A stretch of DNA of 64,000 nt from Herpetosiphon aurantiacus DSM 785 (lineage in GTDB: Bacteria; Chloroflexota; Chloroflexia; Chloroflexales; Herpetosiphonaceae), in NCBI GenBank assembly GCA_000018565.1, contig CP000875.1, positions 1,441,199 to 1,505,198 on the forward strand. The letters are read 5' to 3'. Positions 19,120-29,541 of the stretch are shown here, one piece after another (the stretch's first letter is position 1; the number at the start of each line of letters is the position of its first letter). The notes under the pieces were generated by a model, which was given only the letters and a program-made list of their open reading frames with translations, made no database searches and was not told the DNA's origin. Position numbers and translations under genes: made by a program.

Positions 19120-20397
19120 ATGCAAAATCCTTCTTCAACGGCTTGGTTGGGTCGGTTTCTGAGTATTTGGCTGGGCCAAGTTTTCTCATTAGTCGGAAGC
19201 CAATTAGTTCAATTTGCGATTATTTGGAATTTAACCCTGCGCACTGGTTCGGCCACAACCTTAGCTTTTGCCACATTAATGGCGATGTTGCCAGCGGTGT
19301 TGCTTTCACCGTTTATCGGCACTTGGGTTGATCGCATGAATCGCCAAGTGATTATGTTGGTTGCTGATGCATGTTCGATGTTGGTGACGATTGGCTTGGC
19401 CTTGCTCTTTTGGCGTGGGGCTGATGCAGTGTGGCATATTTACGCGGCGTTGTTATTACGTTCGATTTGTGAGCGATTCCATGCCACAGCTATGGGTGCT
19501 TCGACTGTGTTACTTGTGCCCAAAACCCATTTGGCCCGGGTTCAAGGCCTCAACCAAGCCTTGAATGGCGGTATGAATATTGTTGCCGCGCCACTGGGCG
19601 CATGGCTGATTGCCAAATTTCCCTTGCAAGTTGTTTTATCAATTGATGTAGTTACAGCCTTGTTGGCAATTTTGCCCTTGCTTTTTGTGCGTATTCCCCA
19701 GCCACAGCGTGATGCCGACCGCAAAGTTACCTTTTGGCAAGATATGCGCGAAGGTTTTAACTATGTAATTGGCTGGCGTGGCTTGTTGATAAGCTTGATT
19801 ATGGTGAGCATGATCAATTTGGTGATGACTCCGATTGGCTCATTGTTGCCTTTGCTCGTGACCAAAATTTTTGGTGGCGGAGCCAGCGAATTGGGCTGGA
19901 TGGAAGCTGCGCTCTCGATTGGGATTATCCTCGGCGGGGTTTTGCTGAGCGTTTGGGGCGGCTTCAAGCGGCGGATTGTTACAGCCTTGTTTGGCTTGGT
20001 GCTGCTGGGCAGTTTCACCTTGTTGATGGGAATCATGCCTAGTTCATTGATTTGGGCCGCGATTGCCATGAACGGTTTGGTTGGCCTGAGTTTGCCAATC
20101 GTTAATGGCTCGTTTGGGGCGATGATTCAAGGTGTGATTGCGCCCGAATTGCAAGGGCGGGTATTCTCGTTGGTTGCCAGCTTTGCCACGGCCATGGCTC
20201 CATTGGGCCTCTTATTAGCTGGCCCGATTGCTGATAGTTTTGGTCTGCGGGTTTGGTACATTCTTGGTGGTGTGGTGACGATAGCAATGGGCGTGTTGGG
20301 GTTTGGTTTGCGCTCAGTTATGACTATGGAAAGCCAATCGCACGAGGCTGAACCACCAATCGTCGAGGCAAGCCTAAGCCAAGCCGAAGCGTTATAG
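19120..20397 (+). CDS. MFS transporter (DHA3-like drug/siderophore exporter family)
   Basis: This 425-residue membrane protein has about twelve transmembrane helices. The start FLSIWLGQVFSLVGSQLVQFAIIWNLT is typical of the MFS_3/DHA3 group that includes macrolide efflux and enterobactin export proteins. The loop between helices 2 and 3 has LSPFIGTWVDRMNRQVIMLVAD, the conserved MFS motif A. The substrate is unknown. An AAAGGAG ribosome binding site precedes the ATG. It stands alone between a terminator and a family A repeat. Confidence 0.9.
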   Translation: MQNPSSTAWLGRFLSIWLGQVFSLVGSQLVQFAIIWNLTLRTGSATTLAFATLMAMLPAVLLSPFIGTWVDRMNRQVIMLVADACSMLVTIGLALLFWRGADAVWHIYAALLLRSICERFHATAMGASTVLLVPKTHLARVQGLNQALNGGMNIVAAPLGAWLIAKFPLQVVLSIDVVTALLAILPLLFVRIPQPQRDADRKVTFWQDMREGFNYVIGWRGLLISLIMVSMINLVMTPIGSLLPLLVTKIFGGGASELGWMEAALSIGIILGGVLLSVWGGFKRRIVTALFGLVLLGSFTLLMGIMPSSLIWAAIAMNGLVGLSLPIVNGSFGAMIQGVIAPELQGRVFSLVASFATAMAPLGLLLAGPIADSFGLRVWYILGGVVTIAMGVLGFGLRSVMTMESQSHEAEPPIVEASLSQAEAL

Positions 20398-20602: not shown

Positions 20603-21085
20603 CTACTTAATCAAGTTCAAATCCTTATCGCGCAAGCCAACCAAGGCCATCTCGCCTGCTTCGTTGATATGCAACTCGGCATAACGAGCCTGATTAAAAC
20701 GCTCACCCGTGCCCTCTTGGAAGAAGAATGTGTTTGCTGCAAGCTGCACATCATAACCTCGCGAGCGATATTTAAGCCGTTGTTGATTTGCTGCCAAGGC
20801 TTGTTCACTTGTTTCAAAATGCGAAAATGTACCAATATTCTGCTGATCAATTGTCAGAACCACGGTGCCACGCGATGGAATGTTGCGATTATAGCCCCGT
20901 GGAAAGGTATTGTAATATAACTCCATATAATCGCCTTGCAGCAACGAGCGTGGATCAACTGGCATTAATTCGAGGTAGACCACCCGCCCTGTATTGATTA
21001 TTGCTTCGCGTTGTACCACGCTGAAATTAACCAAGCCCAAACAAGCCACCAAACTGAGGATAATTAAGCCATAACGAATACTCAT
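20603..21085 (-). CDS. GDYXXLXY domain protein
   Basis: This 160-residue protein has one N-terminal transmembrane helix or signal anchor (about residues 5-25) and the name-giving motif LLQGDYMELYY at about residues 48-58. The family has no established biochemical role. It is usually encoded next to DUF2157/DUF4401 membrane proteins, exactly as here. The start overlaps the stop of the DUF4401-like gene by four bases, so the three genes form a coupled operon. Confidence 0.87.
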   Translation of the reverse strand: MSIRYGLIILSLVACLGLVNFSVVQREAIINTGRVVYLELMPVDPRSLLQGDYMELYYNTFPRGYNRNIPSRGTVVLTIDQQNIGTFSHFETSEQALAANQQRLKYRSRGYDVQLAANTFFFQEGTGERFNQARYAELHINEAGEMALVGLRDKDLNLIK

Positions 21086-22143
21086 ACAGCTTCCTTTTGA
21101 TTCAATTTCAGCACCAATGCCCGAATTGCCAGCAACATCATTCCAGTGCCAAATAAGATGATTGATTTGTAGAGCAATGAAATATTAAGATTGTAGTAAT
21201 ACAAACTCAATGCTCCAATTAATGCCAAGCAACCAAACCCAAACATTACCGGATAGCCGCGCCAATAGCTGAGTAAAATAATTAATAGGGCAATAATGAT
21301 CGCAGGTGTGTTAATACCTGCAAAGGCGATAAATAATAAGCCAAATGCAATACAACCAAGCTCAATGAACCCCAATTTATACTCAAATTCATTGATAATC
21401 ATCCAAATAGTTGTGCCCAAGCAGATGATTCCGACTAGCGCTGGCAAAATAAAGAAACTGCCGCGCGAGAAGAATTCAGCCCAATTAAAGTTGATTAGCA
21501 GGCTGGAGATGGCCATAAACAGCAGCATGCCATAGGCTATTGGCGAAGCGCTTGACCAACGCTGATCTTCGTGAATTTTTGCTTCAAACCACATCAGGAG
21601 CGAAAAGCTAATGATCATAACGCTCAACAGCAGATACATATAATTGAAACTCTCGACCCAATTGTTCAGATCACCTGCAATTACATGAATAGCGGTAATA
21701 ACGCCCAACGTCGAGATTAAGCGTTGGCTGAAGTCGCGATGGGCGACAAAGAGGGCTATTTCTAAGACGATCATCCCAAGCGCAGCAACTATCACAGATT
21801 CAACAATTATTGTCCAGCCAAATAGAACTAATGCCTGTCCGGTGATACTAATTGCTAAAGCGAGTTGGCGTAAAAAGGTTGATGCTTGATTGGTGCGATT
21901 GATCCCTATTGCAACGGCGCATAAACCTAATCCAACAACCAATGCGCCAAATTCATTGGTAATAATGTTGGTAATGGCCAAAAAACCAAGGAACATGAAT
22001 GCTGCGAACCATGCCCCAATTCCAGCAAAAATTCGCATATACCATGGATCTTCGCTCGGTGGTTGGGCCGTAAGCACAAATGTTGGTGGCTCAAGCTCAA
22101 GGTCGGCGAACAATTGGCGTAAGCTATAACGTGCAGTGCTCAT
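21082..22143 (-). CDS. DUF4401-like integral membrane protein
   Basis: This 353-residue protein is mostly hydrophobic, with about ten or eleven transmembrane helices after a short cytoplasmic N-terminus. It is the middle gene of a three-gene minus-strand operon with DUF2157 and GDYXXLXY proteins and overlaps both neighbours by four bases. The DUF4401 label rests mainly on this context and on general architecture. Function is unknown. Confidence 0.78.
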   Translation of the reverse strand: MSTARYSLRQLFADLELEPPTFVLTAQPPSEDPWYMRIFAGIGAWFAAFMFLGFLAITNIITNEFGALVVGLGLCAVAIGINRTNQASTFLRQLALAISITGQALVLFGWTIIVESVIVAALGMIVLEIALFVAHRDFSQRLISTLGVITAIHVIAGDLNNWVESFNYMYLLLSVMIISFSLLMWFEAKIHEDQRWSSASPIAYGMLLFMAISSLLINFNWAEFFSRGSFFILPALVGIICLGTTIWMIINEFEYKLGFIELGCIAFGLLFIAFAGINTPAIIIALLIILLSYWRGYPVMFGFGCLALIGALSLYYYNLNISLLYKSIILFGTGMMLLAIRALVLKLNQKEAV

Positions 22144-23150
22144 GCATGGCCTCCTAGCAGTTGTTGGCGTTGGCGAACCCAGAGAATTGAGACCACTGTT
22201 TGACCCAAAATGATCATGCCACCAAATAGGAATGTCGCTCCAGAATCATATGAAAGCCATTCGAAGAGCCAACAATCGACAAAAAAACAAATTGTACCAA
22301 GGCTTGCTAAGGCTAATAGCCCATCAAACGTTACAAAATAATGGTAAGCACCCATTAATCCTAGCATCACAAGCGCTAAGCTATACAGCAAGAATAATGC
22401 GATACTCGGTTTGTCCGATCCATAGCTGAATACCGTATCGACGAAGTTATTGCTGATTAAGCTGAGCACCCAAAGGAGGCCTAAACCAAGTACCCGATGG
22501 AGCCAATTGGTTTGGAGCCAAGCTAATTTGCGTTGGCGTAGGCCTTCAGCAAGCGCAAAAATCAGGGCATTGAAGAGCAATAAGACGAATAAATCGTTGG
22601 TGTTGCGAAAATCACTCGTTTGATCGTAGTAAAGCACAATCGTAAGGTTCCAAAGCCCCCACCACAGCAGCCATAACGGCGCAAAATTGCCAGCAATTGC
22701 CAAGCCGGTGATCACTAAAGCCCAATTCAAGAACAGGGTGTAGGCATCAGCGCCAGTTTGATAAATTTGGCCAAACAGGGCCATGAGTGCCCCAACCAAA
22801 CATGCACTGACCATTAATAAAATCTTGCCTTGAATTCGTTCCAAGCCATACCACAAGGCTGCCACGATCGAAATAAGCAATGCGCCTTCAACTAGGCCCA
22901 ATTTGGCGAAGCGATGCATGCTGGCCCAATTGAATGCAAAGAAGAAATAGACCCCACAAACCGCCAAGCCAGCGCCCAGCACCAGCAAGATAAGGTTGAA
23001 AAAGCGCACCCAAGCTTGGGCCGTTGGCGTAAACCCGCTTAGTTGTAAGGCGCGTTTCATCGTTGGCCGATTAAAAATTCCTTCATCAACATAATGATGG
23101 AGTATGTCGCGGGTTGGGGCTTGATCAAGTGGATCAGGAAGCTCGATCAT
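22140..23150 (-). CDS. DUF2157 integral membrane protein
   Basis: This 336-residue protein has a soluble N-terminus with the DUF2157-type helix (GIFNRPTMKRALQLSGFTPT) and about ten transmembrane helices. The frame extends to a GTG at 23171, but the ATG at 23148-23150 has an AAAGG ribosome binding site five bases upstream and gives the natural start MIELPDPLDQAP. It is the first gene of the operon with the DUF4401-like and GDYXXLXY genes. The biochemical role of this conserved trio is not known to me. Confidence 0.83.
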   Translation of the reverse strand: MIELPDPLDQAPTRDILHHYVDEGIFNRPTMKRALQLSGFTPTAQAWVRFFNLILLVLGAGLAVCGVYFFFAFNWASMHRFAKLGLVEGALLISIVAALWYGLERIQGKILLMVSACLVGALMALFGQIYQTGADAYTLFLNWALVITGLAIAGNFAPLWLLWWGLWNLTIVLYYDQTSDFRNTNDLFVLLLFNALIFALAEGLRQRKLAWLQTNWLHRVLGLGLLWVLSLISNNFVDTVFSYGSDKPSIALFLLYSLALVMLGLMGAYHYFVTFDGLLALASLGTICFFVDCWLFEWLSYDSGATFLFGGMIILGQTVVSILWVRQRQQLLGGHA

Positions 23151-23296
23151 ACAAGCCTTTCTTTCTATCACTCAATAGTTCTATGCTTATTGTAAGCCTC
23201 AATGGCTACTATCGGATGTAACCAAAGGTACACTTGAAGGGTGATTCTAGGGCTGCAAGAACTGCCTAGCTGCTTGACCTTTGCCTGTTTGTAGCG

Positions 23297-23381: not shown

Positions 23382-24134
23382 ATGTCGAAGATAATTTCAA
23401 TCCACTCATTTCGGGGTGGCACGGGTAAATCGAATACGACCGCTAACCTTGCCAGCTTAATCGCGGCAACTGGTCGCCGTGTTGGCGTAATTGATACCGA
23501 TATCATGTCGCCTGGTATTCACGTACTATTTGGTATGAATGAAGATGACATGAAATATTCGCTCAACGACTATCTGTGGGGCAAATGCGAAATCAAACAA
23601 GCAGCCTATGATGTCAGTTCAACCGTCAAAGGCTTGACCTCAGGTCGCATTTTCCTCATCCCTTCGAGTATCAAGGCAGGCGAAATTGCCCGCGTGCTAC
23701 GTGAAGGCTACGATGTGGGTTTGCTCAATGATGGTTTTCATCGCTTGGTCGAGGAATTAAACCTCGATGTGTTGTTGATCGATACTCACCCAGGCTTGAA
23801 TGAAGAAACTTTGCTCTCGATTGCGATCTCCGATTCGTTGATAATCATTTTGCGCCCCGATTCGCAAGATTATCAAGGAACTGGGGTCACGGTCGATGTT
23901 GCCCATAAGTTGGATGTGCCGCAGCTGTTTTTGTTGGTCAATAAAGTGCCAACCTCATTCAATTTTGCCGAAGTCAAGGCCCGCGTCGAAAAAACCTACA
24001 ATAGCGAAGTTGCGGCGGTTCTGCCTCATTCCGATGAGATGATGACGCTGGCCAGTGCTGGCATTTTCGTCTTGCAATATCCCGACCATCCATTAAGCCA
24101 ATCGCTGCGTGGAGTCGCCAATCGGTTAGTGTAA
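23382..24134 (+). CDS. MinD/ParA-like P-loop ATPase, first paralogue
   Basis: This 250-residue SIMIBI-class ATPase starts at the ATG at 23382, ten bases after a GGAG site; the longer open frame adds a sequence without family similarity. The deviant Walker A reads HSFRGGTGKSN, with arginine where ParA/MinD proteins have the signature lysine. VGVIDTDIMSPG is the switch I region and VLLIDTHPGLNEE the Walker B/switch II region. The C-terminal half has no clear amphipathic membrane-targeting helix. It is the first of seven tightly spaced genes and is closely similar to the next one, which suggests a heterodimer or gene duplication. Confidence 0.88.
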   Translation: MSKIISIHSFRGGTGKSNTTANLASLIAATGRRVGVIDTDIMSPGIHVLFGMNEDDMKYSLNDYLWGKCEIKQAAYDVSSTVKGLTSGRIFLIPSSIKAGEIARVLREGYDVGLLNDGFHRLVEELNLDVLLIDTHPGLNEETLLSIAISDSLIIILRPDSQDYQGTGVTVDVAHKLDVPQLFLLVNKVPTSFNFAEVKARVEKTYNSEVAAVLPHSDEMMTLASAGIFVLQYPDHPLSQSLRGVANRLV

Positions 24135-24159
24135 TTTGTGGAATGAGGGCGAGGCAACC

Positions 24160-24924
24160 ATGCCGAAGATTGTTTCCATCCATTCGTTTCGCCCAGGTAC
24201 CGGTAAATCGCAATTAACTGCCAATATTGCAACAATTTTGGCAGCCGCCGGCCAACGGGTGGCAATTATTGATAGCGATGTCCACTCGCCCTCAATCCAG
24301 TGGCTGTTTGGTTTGCCTGAGGGCGCAATTACCCATAGCCTGAATGATTTTCTGTGGGGCAAATGTGGCATCGAATCAACCGCCGTTAATCTCAATCCAA
24401 CGGTTCGCCATCCACTCAAGGGCCAAGTCTATTTAGTGCCATTTGCCACTCGCAATAGCACAATTGATTATGATATTAGCCTACTCAGCGATAGTTTTGA
24501 GTTGTTGATCAATACCTTGCGGCTTGATGTGCTGCTGATCGATACGCAGCCTGGGGTGCAATTCGCGGCGCTACCATCAATCGCCTTTTCGGATATTCAG
24601 GTGTTGGTGTTGCAGCTGCGCGAGCAAGATCTCCAAGGCACAGGCGTGGTGATCGATATTTCCGAGCAACTTGGCATTAGCGAAATGGTGCTGATTGTCA
24701 ATCAAATTCCTGAGCATTATAATTTGCGCGAAGTCCAGCAAAAAATCGAGCAAATTTATCAACGCCCCGTCTTGGCTGCCTTGCCCTACGATGAATTGCT
24801 CGCCGATTACAATCAGGCAAGTTTGTTGCTTGAACGAACTTCATCGAATATTTTTGTGGTAGAACATCCCGACCATCCAATCTCCCTACTTTTGACCAAT
24901 GTGGCTGCAACCTTGACCGCTTAA
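24160..24924 (+). CDS. MinD/ParA-like P-loop ATPase, second paralogue
   Basis: This 254-residue protein is a paralogue of the preceding ATPase. Shared blocks include SIHSFRxGTGKS, the HSLNDFLWGKC segment, LDVLLIDTQPG and the C-terminal PDHPIS motif. The Walker A is SFRPGTGKSQ, again with arginine in place of the signature lysine and with a proline replacing a glycine. The ATG at 24160 follows a GAGG site; the frame opens earlier at 24136. A 25-base gap links it to the first ATPase gene. The role, perhaps positioning or activation of a membrane sensor, is inferred from the operon only. Confidence 0.87.
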   Translation: MPKIVSIHSFRPGTGKSQLTANIATILAAAGQRVAIIDSDVHSPSIQWLFGLPEGAITHSLNDFLWGKCGIESTAVNLNPTVRHPLKGQVYLVPFATRNSTIDYDISLLSDSFELLINTLRLDVLLIDTQPGVQFAALPSIAFSDIQVLVLQLREQDLQGTGVVIDISEQLGISEMVLIVNQIPEHYNLREVQQKIEQIYQRPVLAALPYDELLADYNQASLLLERTSSNIFVVEHPDHPISLLLTNVAATLTA

Positions 24925-24968
24925 TCGAACTCGGACATTGTTGTATTTGCGTAAAGGATGCTGGCTGC

Positions 24969-26321
24969 ATGTTGAAACGGCTGGAACAAGGCTTAAAGTT
25001 ACGTCCAAATGAATGGCGTTTGGTGCTCACGCTCATGGGCTTATTGGCGCTGAATACCTTGGTGCTTGAACTTGCCGATGTGGTCGCCATGGCGGGCTTT
25101 ATTAGCAGCCTTGGCACTGAACAATTGCTGTGGCTCTGGCCAGTCGGCATGCTGCTCACGATTGTAGCTGCTGGTAGCTATGCCTTAATCGTTGATCGCA
25201 CCGAGCGAGTCAGATTAATTCAACGGCTGTTGGCAGGCTTTGGGGCATGTTATCTGGCTATTTTAGGCTTATTTTGGCTCAGCGCACCCGCGTGGCTGAT
25301 CTACCCAGCCTTGTCGATTTTGAACGAACAGCAATATGCAATTTTCCCGTTGGCCTTTTGGGCCTTAGCCAATGATATTTATGCCACTTCTGAGGCCAAG
25401 CGGTTGTTTCCCTTGCTGGGCGCTGGCGCAACCATCGGCAGCCTGCTGGGCAACGGCTTGGCCGCGCTGATCGCCACTTGGTTAGTTGGCAGCGATCAGC
25501 AAAATACTAGTTTGGTGCTGGGTTTGTGCGCAGTTTTATGCTTTTTGGGCATTGGCCAAGTTTGGTTGATGTTTCATAAACACCCAGTTCGGGCACGGCA
25601 AAGCAAAACTGAACGGGAATCAATTCGCGAGACCTTTAAAGTGGGAGCCGATGTGATTCGCCATGTGCCGCTATTTAGTTTGTTGGCGCTGGTGTTGTTT
25701 ACCACTGGCTTGGCTTTAACAGTAGTCGAATTTCACTTTTTGCGCAGCATTGATCAAATAGCGGCAGCCGATCCGTTGCGCTTTCAACAAGTCTATGGTT
25801 CATATAAGTTAGCCTTTGTAGTGATGCTTTTGGCATTTCAATGGCTGTTGGCTGGGCGTTTGCTCAGCACAACCAGCCCCAAACAAGGTTTTATCGCCCT
25901 ACCTATCGTCTTACTACTTTGTATTCTGGGGGCACTGGTTCAGCCACTGATCGGCGGGTTAATTGGTCGATTTGGGGCACGTTTAGCCCAAAGCGGCTGG
26001 GATGAACCATTACGCAAATCAGTTCAGAGTATTATTCCCGACGAGCGGCGCGGGCGCGTAAGCGTTTTTCTTGATAGCTATTGTTATTCATTCGCGACAA
26101 TCGTTGGGTGTGGGGTGATTAGTGTGCTATTGTTGCCAAGCTGGCTGGGAGAGCTAGCGGCTTCGGTTAGTACCCTGATTTATCTTGGCTTTGCAGCGGT
26201 GGCAACTGCTGTCGGCCTTTGGGCCGCTTGGCGTATCCGCCATGTTTACGATAAAAGTCTGCTGAACTGGCGACTGTCGCGCTCTCGACGAAGGAGCGTT
26301 CTCGATGGCATCGAGTTCTGA
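24969..26321 (+). CDS. MFS/Npt-like multi-pass membrane protein
   Basis: This 450-residue protein has about twelve transmembrane helices. The layout and the segment LDSYCYSFATIVGCGVISVLLLPSW after a conserved cytoplasmic stretch (IIPDERRGRVSV) resemble the Npt1/Npt2 ATP/ADP-carrier-like branch of the MFS. That branch includes many bacterial proteins that do not transport nucleotides. The substrate is unknown. Its stop overlaps the start of the acetyltransferase gene by 17 bases, which ties it firmly into the operon. Confidence 0.75.
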   Translation: MLKRLEQGLKLRPNEWRLVLTLMGLLALNTLVLELADVVAMAGFISSLGTEQLLWLWPVGMLLTIVAAGSYALIVDRTERVRLIQRLLAGFGACYLAILGLFWLSAPAWLIYPALSILNEQQYAIFPLAFWALANDIYATSEAKRLFPLLGAGATIGSLLGNGLAALIATWLVGSDQQNTSLVLGLCAVLCFLGIGQVWLMFHKHPVRARQSKTERESIRETFKVGADVIRHVPLFSLLALVLFTTGLALTVVEFHFLRSIDQIAAADPLRFQQVYGSYKLAFVVMLLAFQWLLAGRLLSTTSPKQGFIALPIVLLLCILGALVQPLIGGLIGRFGARLAQSGWDEPLRKSVQSIIPDERRGRVSVFLDSYCYSFATIVGCGVISVLLLPSWLGELAASVSTLIYLGFAAVATAVGLWAAWRIRHVYDKSLLNWRLSRSRRRSVLDGIEF

Positions 26322-27117
26322 GGCGCGATTAGCTCAGTTTGGTGAATTAGAACCGTTGTGGAATAAGTTGCAAGATAGTGTGCGTTGGCCGATGATTCCG
26401 CCGCTTGCCAATCGTGATGCGCCCAAGGGCATGCAATTGCGGGCAATTTTGGGGGCCGAAGCGAGTGAAATTGGGCTGGTACAAGAGCTATTTGCCACGA
26501 TTTTCCCACATTTGGCCCATTATGAGCCTTTTTTGGCGATGTATGCTGAGCCATTTTCGCGCAGCCACCCCGCCACCCTCGACCATTTGTGGTTGATTGA
26601 GCAACACGGCAAGCCAGTCGGGGTGCGCATGTTCAGCTATCTCTATCGGCGCAATTTTGGGCACGGGGCATTTATTGGCATCGATCAACGGGCACGTGGC
26701 ACGGGTATTGGGCGTTGGCTGGTACAAGCTACCCATCAACAATTGGCACTTGATGCCTTGTATAGTGGCAATGAGGCAGTTTTGGGTTATAGTGCCGAAG
26801 TAACGCGGGTTGAGGATGCTCAGCATGAGCTTGAACGCCAAGAACGTGAGGCTCGCCTGCGCTTTCATCTTAATAATGGGGCAGTACTGCTGCCAGTTGA
26901 GTATATTGAACCGCCAGTGATCAAAAATAGCGATGATCAAGCGGCACGGCAACTAACGATTGCCTCACAACCTATGCACTTGGTGTTTTACCCAAGCCAG
27001 CCTAGCCCATTAAATGTCGCAACTATGCGAACGATCGTTGAAGCGATTTACCATGATGTCTACTATTTGGAATCCGACAATCCTTTTGTGCAGCACGCCC
27101 TCGCGTCGTTGCGGTAA
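26305..27117 (+). CDS. GNAT-like acetyltransferase domain protein
   Basis: This 270-residue protein contains a GNAT-type acetyl-CoA site at about residues 118-145: HGAFIGIDQRARGTGIGRWLV, with the R-x-x-G-x-G/A pattern. The C-terminal 100 residues do not resemble a family I know. An AAGGAG site inside the upstream gene and the overlap with its end support the start at 26305. The acceptor molecule is unknown. In this operon it might modify the neighbouring proteins or a small signal molecule, which is speculation. Confidence 0.78.
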   Translation: MASSSEARLAQFGELEPLWNKLQDSVRWPMIPPLANRDAPKGMQLRAILGAEASEIGLVQELFATIFPHLAHYEPFLAMYAEPFSRSHPATLDHLWLIEQHGKPVGVRMFSYLYRRNFGHGAFIGIDQRARGTGIGRWLVQATHQQLALDALYSGNEAVLGYSAEVTRVEDAQHELERQEREARLRFHLNNGAVLLPVEYIEPPVIKNSDDQAARQLTIASQPMHLVFYPSQPSPLNVATMRTIVEAIYHDVYYLESDNPFVQHALASLR

Positions 27118-27129
27118 GGAACAACACCT

Positions 27130-28200
27130 ATGACAGCCGTAGCACCCAAAAGCCGTTTTTTAAGCCTGCGTTGGCGTTTGTTGGCCATTTTTACCCTGCT
27201 GTTTTTCATTGTTTTGACTGGGGTGTTTGTCTGGTTTTTGAATTATGCCACCGATAATGCCCAAGCTGACCTCGAAGCCGATCTGATGGCGATTGCCAAA
27301 ACGGCTGCCGCTGGAATCGATGGCGATGAACATAGCGCCTTGTATAGCCAAGGCCAAATTGATGACCCAACCTATCTCAAAATCAATGCCTACTTGCGTG
27401 AGGTCAAAACCACCAATCCCAAGGCTTCGGGCATTTATACCTTTGTCCAACTGCCCAATGAGCCAGATCAAGCGCGTTTTGTGGTGAGTGCGGCGATTCC
27501 GCCAGGCCAGTCGGAAACTGCCCGCGAGAAAGAATTACTGACCGAATCGACCTATGGCTGTACGATTAACCGCACTACCCGCCCTTTGATGAACGCTAAT
27601 TTTACATCAGCTGGTGGCTTTTCGGCAGCTATGGCGCGTGGTTTGCGTGAACCAAGCATCGATCCCAAGCCCTCGGTTGATCAATGGGGTGAGTGGATTG
27701 CTGGGGCTGCGCCAATTTACAATGCCAAAGGCGAAACGGTTGGCGCAGTTGGGGTTGATATGTGCGTGGCCGAAGTTACCGCTGTGCGCAATCGGATTAG
27801 CCAAACCTTGATTCCAGGCTTTTTGATTGTGACGGTGCTCTTGGCGATTGCAATTTATCTGATTGCCCATCGTCTAACCAAGCCAATTATTGGCTTGACC
27901 GCTGTTGCCAAGCAAATTAGTAATGGCGACTATAGCTCAGAAGTGCCCGAAAGCACCAGCCGTTTGCGTGATGAAGTTGCCACCCTCGCCAGCGTTTTTG
28001 CTATGATGGTCGATAAAGTCCGTGAACGTGAACATAAATTGCGCCAGCAAGTGGCTGAATTGCAAATTATCGTTGATGAAGGCAAACGCAAACAGCAAGT
28101 CGATGAAATTGTTGATAGCGAATTCTTTCGTAATTTGCAAGAAAAAGCCCGTGAAGCCCGTCAACGCCGTGATCGCCGCCCGCCTGACCAAACCAGCTAA
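27130..28200 (+). CDS. Membrane sensor with extracytoplasmic domain and HAMP, no output domain
   Basis: This 356-residue protein has a transmembrane helix at about residues 17-38, an extracytoplasmic Cache/PAS-like sensing region to about 228 (GEWIAGAAPIYNAKGETVGAVGVD is Cache-like), and a second helix at about 231-249. A HAMP domain follows (RLTKPIIGLTAVAKQISNGD, about 251-303) with a coiled coil. It ends in a short charged tail containing VDEIVDSEFFRNLQEKAREA. There is no kinase, cyclase or phosphatase domain, so the signal must pass to a partner, perhaps the MinD-like ATPases. Similar output-less HAMP proteins exist in cyanobacteria and Chloroflexota as I recall. Confidence 0.87.
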   Translation: MTAVAPKSRFLSLRWRLLAIFTLLFFIVLTGVFVWFLNYATDNAQADLEADLMAIAKTAAAGIDGDEHSALYSQGQIDDPTYLKINAYLREVKTTNPKASGIYTFVQLPNEPDQARFVVSAAIPPGQSETAREKELLTESTYGCTINRTTRPLMNANFTSAGGFSAAMARGLREPSIDPKPSVDQWGEWIAGAAPIYNAKGETVGAVGVDMCVAEVTAVRNRISQTLIPGFLIVTVLLAIAIYLIAHRLTKPIIGLTAVAKQISNGDYSSEVPESTSRLRDEVATLASVFAMMVDKVREREHKLRQQVAELQIIVDEGKRKQQVDEIVDSEFFRNLQEKAREARQRRDRRPPDQTS

Positions 28201-28221
28201 CCACCAGCGGAGGCTCCAGCT

Positions 28222-29076
28222 ATGCCAATCTATACCGTCAACGATCAATCGATTCATGTGTGGGAAGAGGGTGCAAGCGATAAACAAGTAGCCTTGTTAA
28301 TTCATGGCTGGTCAAGCTCATGGTTTGCCATGTCGCCGTTGTTTCCCATTTTGTCGCGCTATCGCTGTTTGGCGGTCGATTTGCCAGGCTACGGCCAATC
28401 GCCTAAGGGTGATGATCCGGTCAGCATTGTGGCCTATACCGATCTGTTGGCCGACCTTTTGCGCCAAGTCACCGATCAACCGGCAGTGTTGATTGGCCAT
28501 TCGATGGGTGGCATGATTAGCTTGACCATGAGTTTGCGTCACCCTGAGCTAATCGAGCGCATGGTCTTAATTTGCCCAACGATCAGCGGGCGTTTATCGA
28601 TGTTTATCAATATGTTTCTTGGGCCGTTGGTAGTGTTGGAGCGCGTGCCTTTTGCCGATCGAGTAACTTCGCTGATTGAAACGCGTATCTGGCGAATTAC
28701 CGACCGCGTGATGAAACCAGCCTCGTATGCCGAGCGCAGCGCCATTAGTAGCGAAGCCCATGAACGTATCAAGGCCGATGTGCGGCGGCCAGGTCAAGGC
28801 CAAATTCGCGCTGAATGCTACCGTGCCATGCGCGAAAACGATTTGCGTGGGCAATTGCAAAAAATTAGCCATCCTTCGCTCTATTTATGGGGCATGGAAG
28901 ATAACACAGTGCCCTTGCGCGATGCCAGCAGCGTCGTCGCCGAATTGCCCGATGCCGATTTGCGGATTATTCCCAACGCTGGGCATTGGCCCCATTTTGA
29001 AGCCCTCGTTACCACTCAACGCTATGTTCGGGCATTTCTTAGCACCCCGATTAAGTTGCTCAAGGCACAATTTTAG
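28222..29076 (+). CDS. Alpha/beta hydrolase
   Basis: This 284-residue protein has the alpha/beta hydrolase fold of the esterase/haloperoxidase group. The oxyanion motif LLIHGWSSS is at about residues 25-33, the nucleophile elbow is GHSMGGM with Ser94, the acid is probably in WGMEDNTVPLRD, and the catalytic His is in NAGHWPHFEA near the C-terminus. No signal peptide is visible. The substrate cannot be inferred. It is the sixth gene of the MinD/HAMP operon, 21 bases after the HAMP gene. Confidence 0.9.
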   Translation: MPIYTVNDQSIHVWEEGASDKQVALLIHGWSSSWFAMSPLFPILSRYRCLAVDLPGYGQSPKGDDPVSIVAYTDLLADLLRQVTDQPAVLIGHSMGGMISLTMSLRHPELIERMVLICPTISGRLSMFINMFLGPLVVLERVPFADRVTSLIETRIWRITDRVMKPASYAERSAISSEAHERIKADVRRPGQGQIRAECYRAMRENDLRGQLQKISHPSLYLWGMEDNTVPLRDASSVVAELPDADLRIIPNAGHWPHFEALVTTQRYVRAFLSTPIKLLKAQF

Positions 29077-29091
29077 CTGTGGAGTTGGTTT

Positions 29092-29541
29092 ATGGATAGT
29101 TCAGCCGAACCAAGTGGCGGCCTTAGTTCCTTAGATTTTGAGCATTTATCGTTGGCCGAGCGCACCGTGATTCGGGCGATTTTGCGCCAGCGCGAGGTTG
29201 ATGAAGCCAAATTAATTGAGGCACTAGCTGATTTACCCGATGCGGAGCAATTGAGCGTTGCCGAAATGGAGCAGGCGATCGCCCAGTTGCTTGAACAGCA
29301 GCATGTCTTGATTCTTGAGGGCGAGCCACGCCGCTATAAAGTCAATTTACGCCCCAAACATACCAGCAGCCTGCGTCGCCCAATTTGGGATGCCCTGCAA
29401 AGCACTCCCGGCGATGAGCAGCAACAAGCCCGCAGCGAGCGTCGCCGCCGCATCCCAAATGTGTGGGATGCCCTCGATGAACATAAGCCGCGCCGCGATC
29501 TGCCCAATTTTAGCGATCAGAGCAACGATGAGCAAGCCTAA
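29092..29541 (+). CDS. Small acidic protein of unknown function
   Basis: This 149-residue protein ends the seven-gene operon, 15 bases after the hydrolase gene. The N-terminal half looks helical and acidic (EHLSLAERTVIRAILRQREV, ALADLPDAEQLSVAEMEQAI), possibly a small winged-helix-like fold with the LLEQQHVLILEGEPRRYKVN segment as wing. The second half is a basic, repetitive low-complexity region with two similar segments, RPIWDALQ and PNVWDALDEHKP, that could be linear binding motifs. I do not recognise the family. Confidence 0.75.
   Translation: MDSSAEPSGGLSSLDFEHLSLAERTVIRAILRQREVDEAKLIEALADLPDAEQLSVAEMEQAIAQLLEQQHVLILEGEPRRYKVNLRPKHTSSLRRPIWDALQSTPGDEQQQARSERRRRIPNVWDALDEHKPRRDLPNFSDQSNDEQA

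Follow-up and report, generated by a model that had tools for sequence, protein, structure and literature searches.

The two adjacent ATPase genes at positions 23382-24924 of the window (the whole 64,000-nucleotide stretch of Herpetosiphon aurantiacus DSM 785 DNA that was analysed) belong to a widespread and apparently uncharacterised bacterial family, here called MinD-R, which is found almost solely together with sensors that have a hitherto unnamed C-terminal tail in common. The family probably acts not in cell division but as the common output switch of a signalling system that has so far gone unrecognised. Its hallmark is a fixed arginine at the signature lysine position of MinD and ParA, combined with a retained catalytic lysine. 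The main interest, however, lies outside these two genes, in a system of sensors sharing one C-terminal tail, which was missed in the preliminary description of this DNA.

The motifs given in that description, FRGGTGKS and FRPGTGKS, were recovered exactly as described when both open reading frames were read again. From its reading frame, alignment, AlphaFold2 model and structural matches, MinD-R paralogue 1 (MinD-R1; 23382..24134, plus strand; sequence MSKIISIHSFRGGTGKSN) is an arginine-type MinD-like ATPase. It starts with the ATG at 23382, with AGGAG upstream, its stop codon ends at 24134, and residues are numbered from this ATG. The protein contains the P-loop FRGGTGKSN, the switch I residues D38 and D40, a Walker B region D134-T-H-P-G and the family motif RPDxQDYQGT. 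MinD-R paralogue 2 (MinD-R2; 24160..24924, plus strand; sequence MPKIVSIHSFRPGTGKSQ) is, from its reading frame, alignment and tree, a fast-evolving sister with the P-loop FRPGTGKSQ; although its frame is listed with a TTG start at 24136, the ATG at 24160 is the likelier start, and the stop codon ends at 24924. In the alignments both ATPases have arginine for K11 of E. coli MinD, and MinD-R2 also has proline for G12, again as first described. All other MinD-, ParA-, Mrp- and CpaE-type proteins checked in the window genome have lysine at the signature position, and two BY-kinase-like proteins of this genome have neither lysine nor arginine. The first glycine of the classic Walker A motif is replaced by phenylalanine in MinD-R1, but ordinary ParA proteins of the window genome vary at this position too (NFKGGIGKT, NQKGGVGKT), and the arginine is therefore the sole real deviation of MinD-R1.

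The search for relatives drew on 251 Chloroflexota genomes, of which 31 were positive, on 79 genome loci and on plasmid records, the plasmid relatives coming from Deinococcus, Nostoc, Pseudanabaena, Kovacikia, Rhizobium and Streptomyces. Arginine occupies the signature position in 128 of 128 non-identical MinD-R1 sequences from Chloroflexota, Cyanobacteria, Deinococcota, Actinomycetota and Rhizobium, with plasmid records providing the coverage outside Chloroflexota, while every ordinary MinD/ParA/Mrp relative sampled has lysine. This invariance rules out a neutral or chance K-to-R change. R11, G12, K16, D38, D40, D134, H136, E142, R158, D160, D163 and N187 are each present in all 128 sequences, and the positions equivalent to K16, D38, D40, D120 and E146 of E. 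coli MinD are likewise invariant, the last being an aspartate at position 160 of MinD-R1. In E. coli MinD, E146 contacts the partner's nucleotide across the dimer. When analysed with 20 lysine-type MinD, Soj, Mrp and CpaE sequences, E. coli MinD among them, the MinD-R family formed a single clade outside ordinary MinD (SH-aLRT 99.8; 98 in a larger tree), which supports the separate SIMIBI subfamily that had been suggested earlier. The outcome named at that time as counting against the suggestion, a phylogeny placing both proteins amid ordinary MinD with frequent K-to-R changes, was not obtained, and the signature position of MinD-R1 does not flicker between the two residues.

The AlphaFold2 model of MinD-R1 (pLDDT 93.8) found its best Foldseek matches in MinD, FlhG and FleN (1hyq, 4v02, 4rz3 and 5j1j; E 1e-14 to 1e-17). 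By its MinD-type fold, Walker A lysine and switch aspartates, with the signature lysine absent, the ATPase falls within the known SIMIBI MinD/ParA superfamily, and it is already annotated generically as a "MinD/ParA family protein". The window protein agrees with the definition of MinD-R, that is [FY]RGGTGK[ST]N, RPDxQDYQGT and linked or co-occurring tail proteins. No account of the motif or the cluster was found in the open-licence literature, and an earlier description elsewhere is possible. Viral contigs gave no match to MinD-R, phage records gave distant ParA-type matches only, and PADLOC and PHROGs gave nothing beyond generic ParA-like or weak matches. Copies 70-74% identical occur on contigs with cyanobacterial, Bacteroidetes or Bacillota/Clostridiales names (L046, a Pleurocapsa minor MAG, and L060, L106, L109 and L111); the neighbours of L046 also match Chloroflexota loci, and these five look like binning or naming errors.

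In the window, seven co-directional genes extend over 23382-29541 on the plus strand, with gaps of less than 50 bp or overlaps. After the two ATPase genes comes a TLC/MFS-like membrane protein (24969..26321; Pfam PF03219, 33.9 bits; a homologue is found in L094), a family for which 17 of 18 genomes possessing it also have MinD-R, and for which a long homologue-like neighbour with HEAT and cNMP-binding domains was seen in L070. It is followed by a GNAT-family acetyltransferase (26305..27117; PF00583), whose neighbour family recurs in 9 loci, and by a membrane HAMP sensor (27130..28200; Pfam HAMP) with no kinase or cyclase output, ending in the shared tail. An alpha/beta hydrolase identified by Pfam (28222..29076) and a small winged-helix protein (29092..29541) complete the operon. 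Across 80 loci the recurrent neighbours include TLC-like, GNAT, HAMP, cNMP-binding, PrsW-like membrane, STAS and RsbW-like proteins and class III cyclases. In Deinococcus and Streptomyces, the order AGE epimerase, STAS, GlgX, then STAS/RsbW/SpoIIE with MinD-R is repeated, and Nostoc and the Chloroflexota locus L094 have abridged or altered versions of it; the loci showing this glycogen and partner-switching arrangement beside MinD-R, whole or in part, are L117, L119, L123 and L094. Directly upstream of MinD-R1 in the window lies a divergent operon (20603-23171, minus strand) encoding DUF2157, DUF4401 and a small membrane-anchored protein, and at 19120-20397 there is an MFS-type efflux pump similar to the Mef proteins for macrolides, although its score of 226 against 800 bits is far under the curated cut-offs.

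The tail of the HAMP sensor (27970..28176, plus strand; tail HMM E ~1e-28) is a module of some 68 residues at the C-terminus that HAMP sensors share with cNMP proteins, and no family was assigned to it in Pfam scans. Its consensus is REx..LKxQVxxLxIxIDExKRxxQVxEITxTDFFxxLxxKAxxxRxR, in which R, E, D, I, L and a C-terminal R are near-invariant. Separate HMMs built from the tails of the HAMP proteins and of the cNMP proteins detect each other, with E ~1e-14 to 1e-18 for most members. The module is carried, either terminally or as a linking segment, by dCache-HAMP, HAMP, CHASE2, CHASE3-HAMP-GAF, GAF, REC, HisKA-REC and cNMP proteins; the operon's HAMP sensor is the single tail protein of the window genome. 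Two genomes of the same order encode REC-GAF-tail-alpha/beta hydrolase fusions in which the tail is internal (L203:565-3123 and L204:565-3168, both minus strand), and these match the separate hydrolase gene directly after the sensor in the window. A tail-bearing dCache-HAMP protein was also seen on Pseudanabaena sp. ABRG5-3 plasmid ABRG53d (L206, 696-9952), close behind a phage-tail-like contractile cluster with VgrG, PAAR, gp25, baseplate and tail genes; MinD-R was not found on this plasmid.

The tail and MinD-R occur together to a striking degree. Among the 251 Chloroflexota genomes, MinD-R was found in 31, the tail in 30 and both in 29 (hypergeometric p ~1.7e-34), and among 162 genera the corresponding counts are 18, 17 and 16 (p ~5e-19); relatedness among the genomes makes these p-values overstate the independence of the samples, and the genus and plasmid counts are the more reliable figures. 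On plasmids the tail is present in 7 of 72,556 records, 6 of which also have MinD-R. The co-occurrence is not one inherited event, because some families mix genera having both with genera having neither, as in family f2, where g3, g9 and g10 have both and g4 and g5 have neither. In two MinD-R genomes, which are only 76-80% complete, no tail was detected, and the tail is found without MinD-R in one genome and one plasmid. A tail protein is encoded within 6 kb of 39 of 52 MinD-R1 genes. The other 13 loci have no nearby tail protein and include Nostoc NIES-3756, Nostoc UHCC 0870 and Pseudanabaena; for NIES-3756 and Pseudanabaena the tail is present elsewhere on the plasmid, and in the Streptomyces locus examined no tail protein was seen. 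What the co-occurrence indicates is partnership, not direct contact.

Partnership with sensors could have another meaning. ParA and MinD relatives position chemoreceptors and carboxysomes, and it is conceivable, though unlikely, that MinD-R, like McdA, ParC or PpfA, spaces clusters of tail-bearing sensors as its cargo, with the winged-helix or tail proteins as cargo adaptor. The sensors are the most consistently linked genes, and McdA, a positioning ATPase for carboxysomes (PMC6328274), is likewise devoid of the signature lysine; against this, a large number of the tail-bearing proteins are soluble or occur in one copy (REC, cNMP and GAF proteins; one in the window genome) and do not look like obvious cargo of an array, and the linked anti-sigma, SpoIIE and hydrolase genes suit signalling better.

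The small winged-helix protein has no Pfam family. Its AlphaFold2 model is a winged helix with a C-terminal tail mostly at lower confidence, and this C-terminus bears two W-motifs, PIWDALQ and NVWDALDE. The partner lies near MinD-R1 (within 400 bp, same strand) in 62 of 121 cases, and 21 of the 22 genomes having it also have MinD-R. Its C-terminal motif is [ILV]Wxx[LI]D; the looser form [ILVM]Wxx[LIV] ends 68 of 83 winged-helix partners, against a mean of 6.3 and a maximum of 14 in shuffled sequences. A similar C-terminal W-motif was found in 13 of 24 PrsW-like neighbours, an unrelated family, compared to 0.12 in shuffles, whereas among the 853 other neighbours it was present in just 3, and two of these are winged-helix family members by profile. 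These PrsW-like putative intramembrane proteases (L082:5497-6606, minus strand, and homologues) adjoin a second intact MinD-R copy in Anaerolineales. Two unrelated proteins with the same tail motif in the same clusters suggest a common binding partner, which would most simply be MinD-R.

FleN, one of the top fold matches, provides through FleN-FleQ a precedent for an anti-activator, and MinD-R might by analogy sequester or remodel the winged-helix protein as a transcription factor, which we consider quite unlikely. The winged-helix core does match the DNA-binding domains of MecI and Fur, and the partner is often close to MinD-R1, but the cullin WHB match is equally good and the core is acidic (pI ~5), unusual for DNA binding, which makes a DNA-binding role unsure; moreover, the partner is missing from 10 of the 31 MinD-R genomes, whereas the tail is nearly always there.

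The tandem pairing of the two ATPases had led to the suggestion of an obligate heterodimer of paralogues sharing the same change. As a description of the window this is correct in that both copies have the arginine, but within the family the situation is asymmetric, with MinD-R1 strict and the second paralogue eroded. The 24 second paralogues cluster together with long branches and moderate support (SH-aLRT 92 in the larger tree, 76 in the outgroup tree). G12 is lost in all 24, R11 in 8, K16 in 3 and D40 in about 9; the signature residue is arginine in 16 of the 24 and otherwise L, E, Y, H, Q or M. The window MinD-R2 retains the equivalents of R11, K16, D38, D40 and D134, and is changed at G12P, E142A, R158Q and D160R. 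The low dN/dS values among Herpetosiphonaceae (0.016-0.074 for MinD-R1 and 0.03-0.22 for MinD-R2) place both paralogues under purifying selection, clear but weaker on MinD-R2, and, being well below 1, rule out that MinD-R2 is a pseudogene. The window locus is 93-99% identical to Herpetosiphon loci. That the pair stands in tandem in all Herpetosiphonaceae examined, that both members are under selection and that active-site residues are lost asymmetrically, in paralogue 2, would suit an obligate heterodimer. Yet MinD-R1 retains all residues required for a homodimer and has no second family member beside it in several genomes of 95% completeness or more (such as G061, G238, G013, G026, G128 and G192), so that obligate pairing is not supported as a family trait and is, in our judgement, very improbable. 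In the genomes searched, the second paralogue is always on a contig bearing paralogue 1, and in the family f12 lineage MinD-R1 is instead accompanied by another, intact duplicate with FRGGTGKS. These observations suggest that the MinD-R2-type paralogue is a regulatory, partly inactive partner and not an obligate half. Finally, although Pfam and NCBIfam models of MinD/ParA do match, the reading of MinD-R as an ordinary MinD/ParA ATPase of cell division or partition whose lysine changed neutrally to arginine is refuted as stated and hardly credible given equivalog scores far under cut-off (53.6 against 212.9 for MinD), the separate clade, the lack of a membrane-targeting tail and of adjoining MinC, MinE or ParB, and the presence in the window genome of its own lysine-type MinD-like and Soj-like genes.

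We return to MinD-R as a signalling output. The family, the tail, the W-motif, their linkage and co-occurrence, the selection and the predicted fold were observed or computed. From the invariant active site, the MinD/FlhG fold, the tail linkage and co-occurrence and the W-motif, MinD-R1 may be read as an ATP-driven homodimerising switch and common receiver for tail-bearing sensors, a reading to which we lend even weight for and against. All of the binding and catalytic steps that follow are ones that we infer. ATP binding would cause MinD-R1 to dimerise in the manner of the MinD/FlhG fold, and the arginine, like the signature lysine, would probably still extend over the dimer interface to the ATP of the partner subunit. 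Sensors with HAMP, Cache-HAMP, CHASE2, GAF, REC or cNMP domains, membrane-bound or soluble and without an output enzyme of their own, would feed in through the shared tail, which would comprise a coiled-coil and a helical part (TDFFxxLxxKAxxxRxR). The tail would dock on the ATP-bound dimer and alter its ATPase state, and exposure or alignment of the tail by the sensor would either stabilise or discharge the dimer. Segments of MinE, ParB and BcsR act on their ATPases, and these, together with FlhG, are the analogies on which the model draws. The state of the dimer would then set the binding of the W-motif winged-helix adaptor, a second and ATPase-state-dependent partner, and the adaptor would pass the signal to outputs varying between lineages, such as partner-switching anti-sigma modules, transporters, hydrolases and glycogen enzymes. 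Where present, MinD-R2, a degenerate regulatory sister, likely tunes MinD-R1 by hetero-pairing, biasing the cycle.

More tentatively, and with somewhat more doubt than belief, we propose a new signalling class, found in several phyla, in which varied sensors share one C-terminal output module and an arginine-type MinD receiver, and a degenerate paralogue together with W-motif adaptors provides further regulation. Genome annotation often leaves unexplained those sensors that have HAMP, Cache, GAF, REC or cNMP domains and lack an output enzyme; here one short tail, through its very strong co-occurrence with MinD-R, ties these orphans to a single ATPase family. Should the tail control the ATPase, they would gain a testable output and the role of the MinD fold would extend from spatial positioning to signal integration in general. 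MinD-R is also a natural system in which to ask whether arginine can take the place of the signature lysine when the catalytic lysine is kept, and what role a degenerate MinD paralogue plays.

Compared to known systems, the proposed class differs in that its receiver is a MinD-type ATPase and not a kinase, cyclase or methyl-accepting output. MinD-R has the same fold as MinD and FlhG/FleN, to which it is also related by sequence matches, and keeps the Walker A lysine and the D38, D40 and D120 equivalents; it differs from them in its ~17-25% identity, in the arginine for the signature lysine and in its partners. Unlike them it has no C-terminal membrane helix, MinD-R1 ending at the last helix of the fold with no amphipathic membrane-targeting extension as in MinD, and no MinC, MinE or FlhF neighbours were found. 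Membership of MinCDE is rejected on this absence of the extension, on scores below the TIGR01968/TIGR01969 cut-offs (53.6 of 212.9 and 95.7 of 201.75 bits) and on the lack of minC and minE in the window operon or among recurrent families of related loci; membership of ParABS is rejected because no ParB was found next to MinD-R in the window operon or in the recurrent neighbour families. SpoIIE/STAS/RsbW partner-switching modules adjoin MinD-R, whole or partial, in loci of four phyla but are absent from the window operon, and MinD-R is not a component of known partner switches. The second-best NCBIfam model for both paralogues is NF047398, a KGGVGR-motif variant AAA ATPase, with 76.3 and 64.0 bits, both under its 90-bit cut-off; its name points to lysine first and arginine at the catalytic site, which is the opposite of the MinD-R arrangement.

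Loss of the signature lysine is in itself not new, as seen from three precedents. It is tolerated in ATPase assays of mycobacterial MSMEG_3743 (PMC10482377). Type 1 McdA has serine in its place (PMC6328274, PMC8262871) and an unusually high ATPase activity (PMC6328274); MinD-R differs from it in having arginine and in its genomic context, and no McdB partner is annotated in the operon or among recurrent neighbours. The closest precedent for the residue itself is BcsQ, which has arginine at the signature position (Table 1, PMC9178275) and forms a nucleotide-driven sandwich dimer with the small partner BcsR (PMC11470070). MinD-R1 reaches 42.2 of the 157.85 bits required by the BcsQ model TIGR03371, and no bcs genes are among the annotated neighbours in the operon and related clusters. 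The BcsQ motif is VRGGVGTT (from the E. coli K-12 sequence, where the gene is a pseudogene), and thus BcsQ has threonine for the catalytic lysine, which MinD-R1 keeps.
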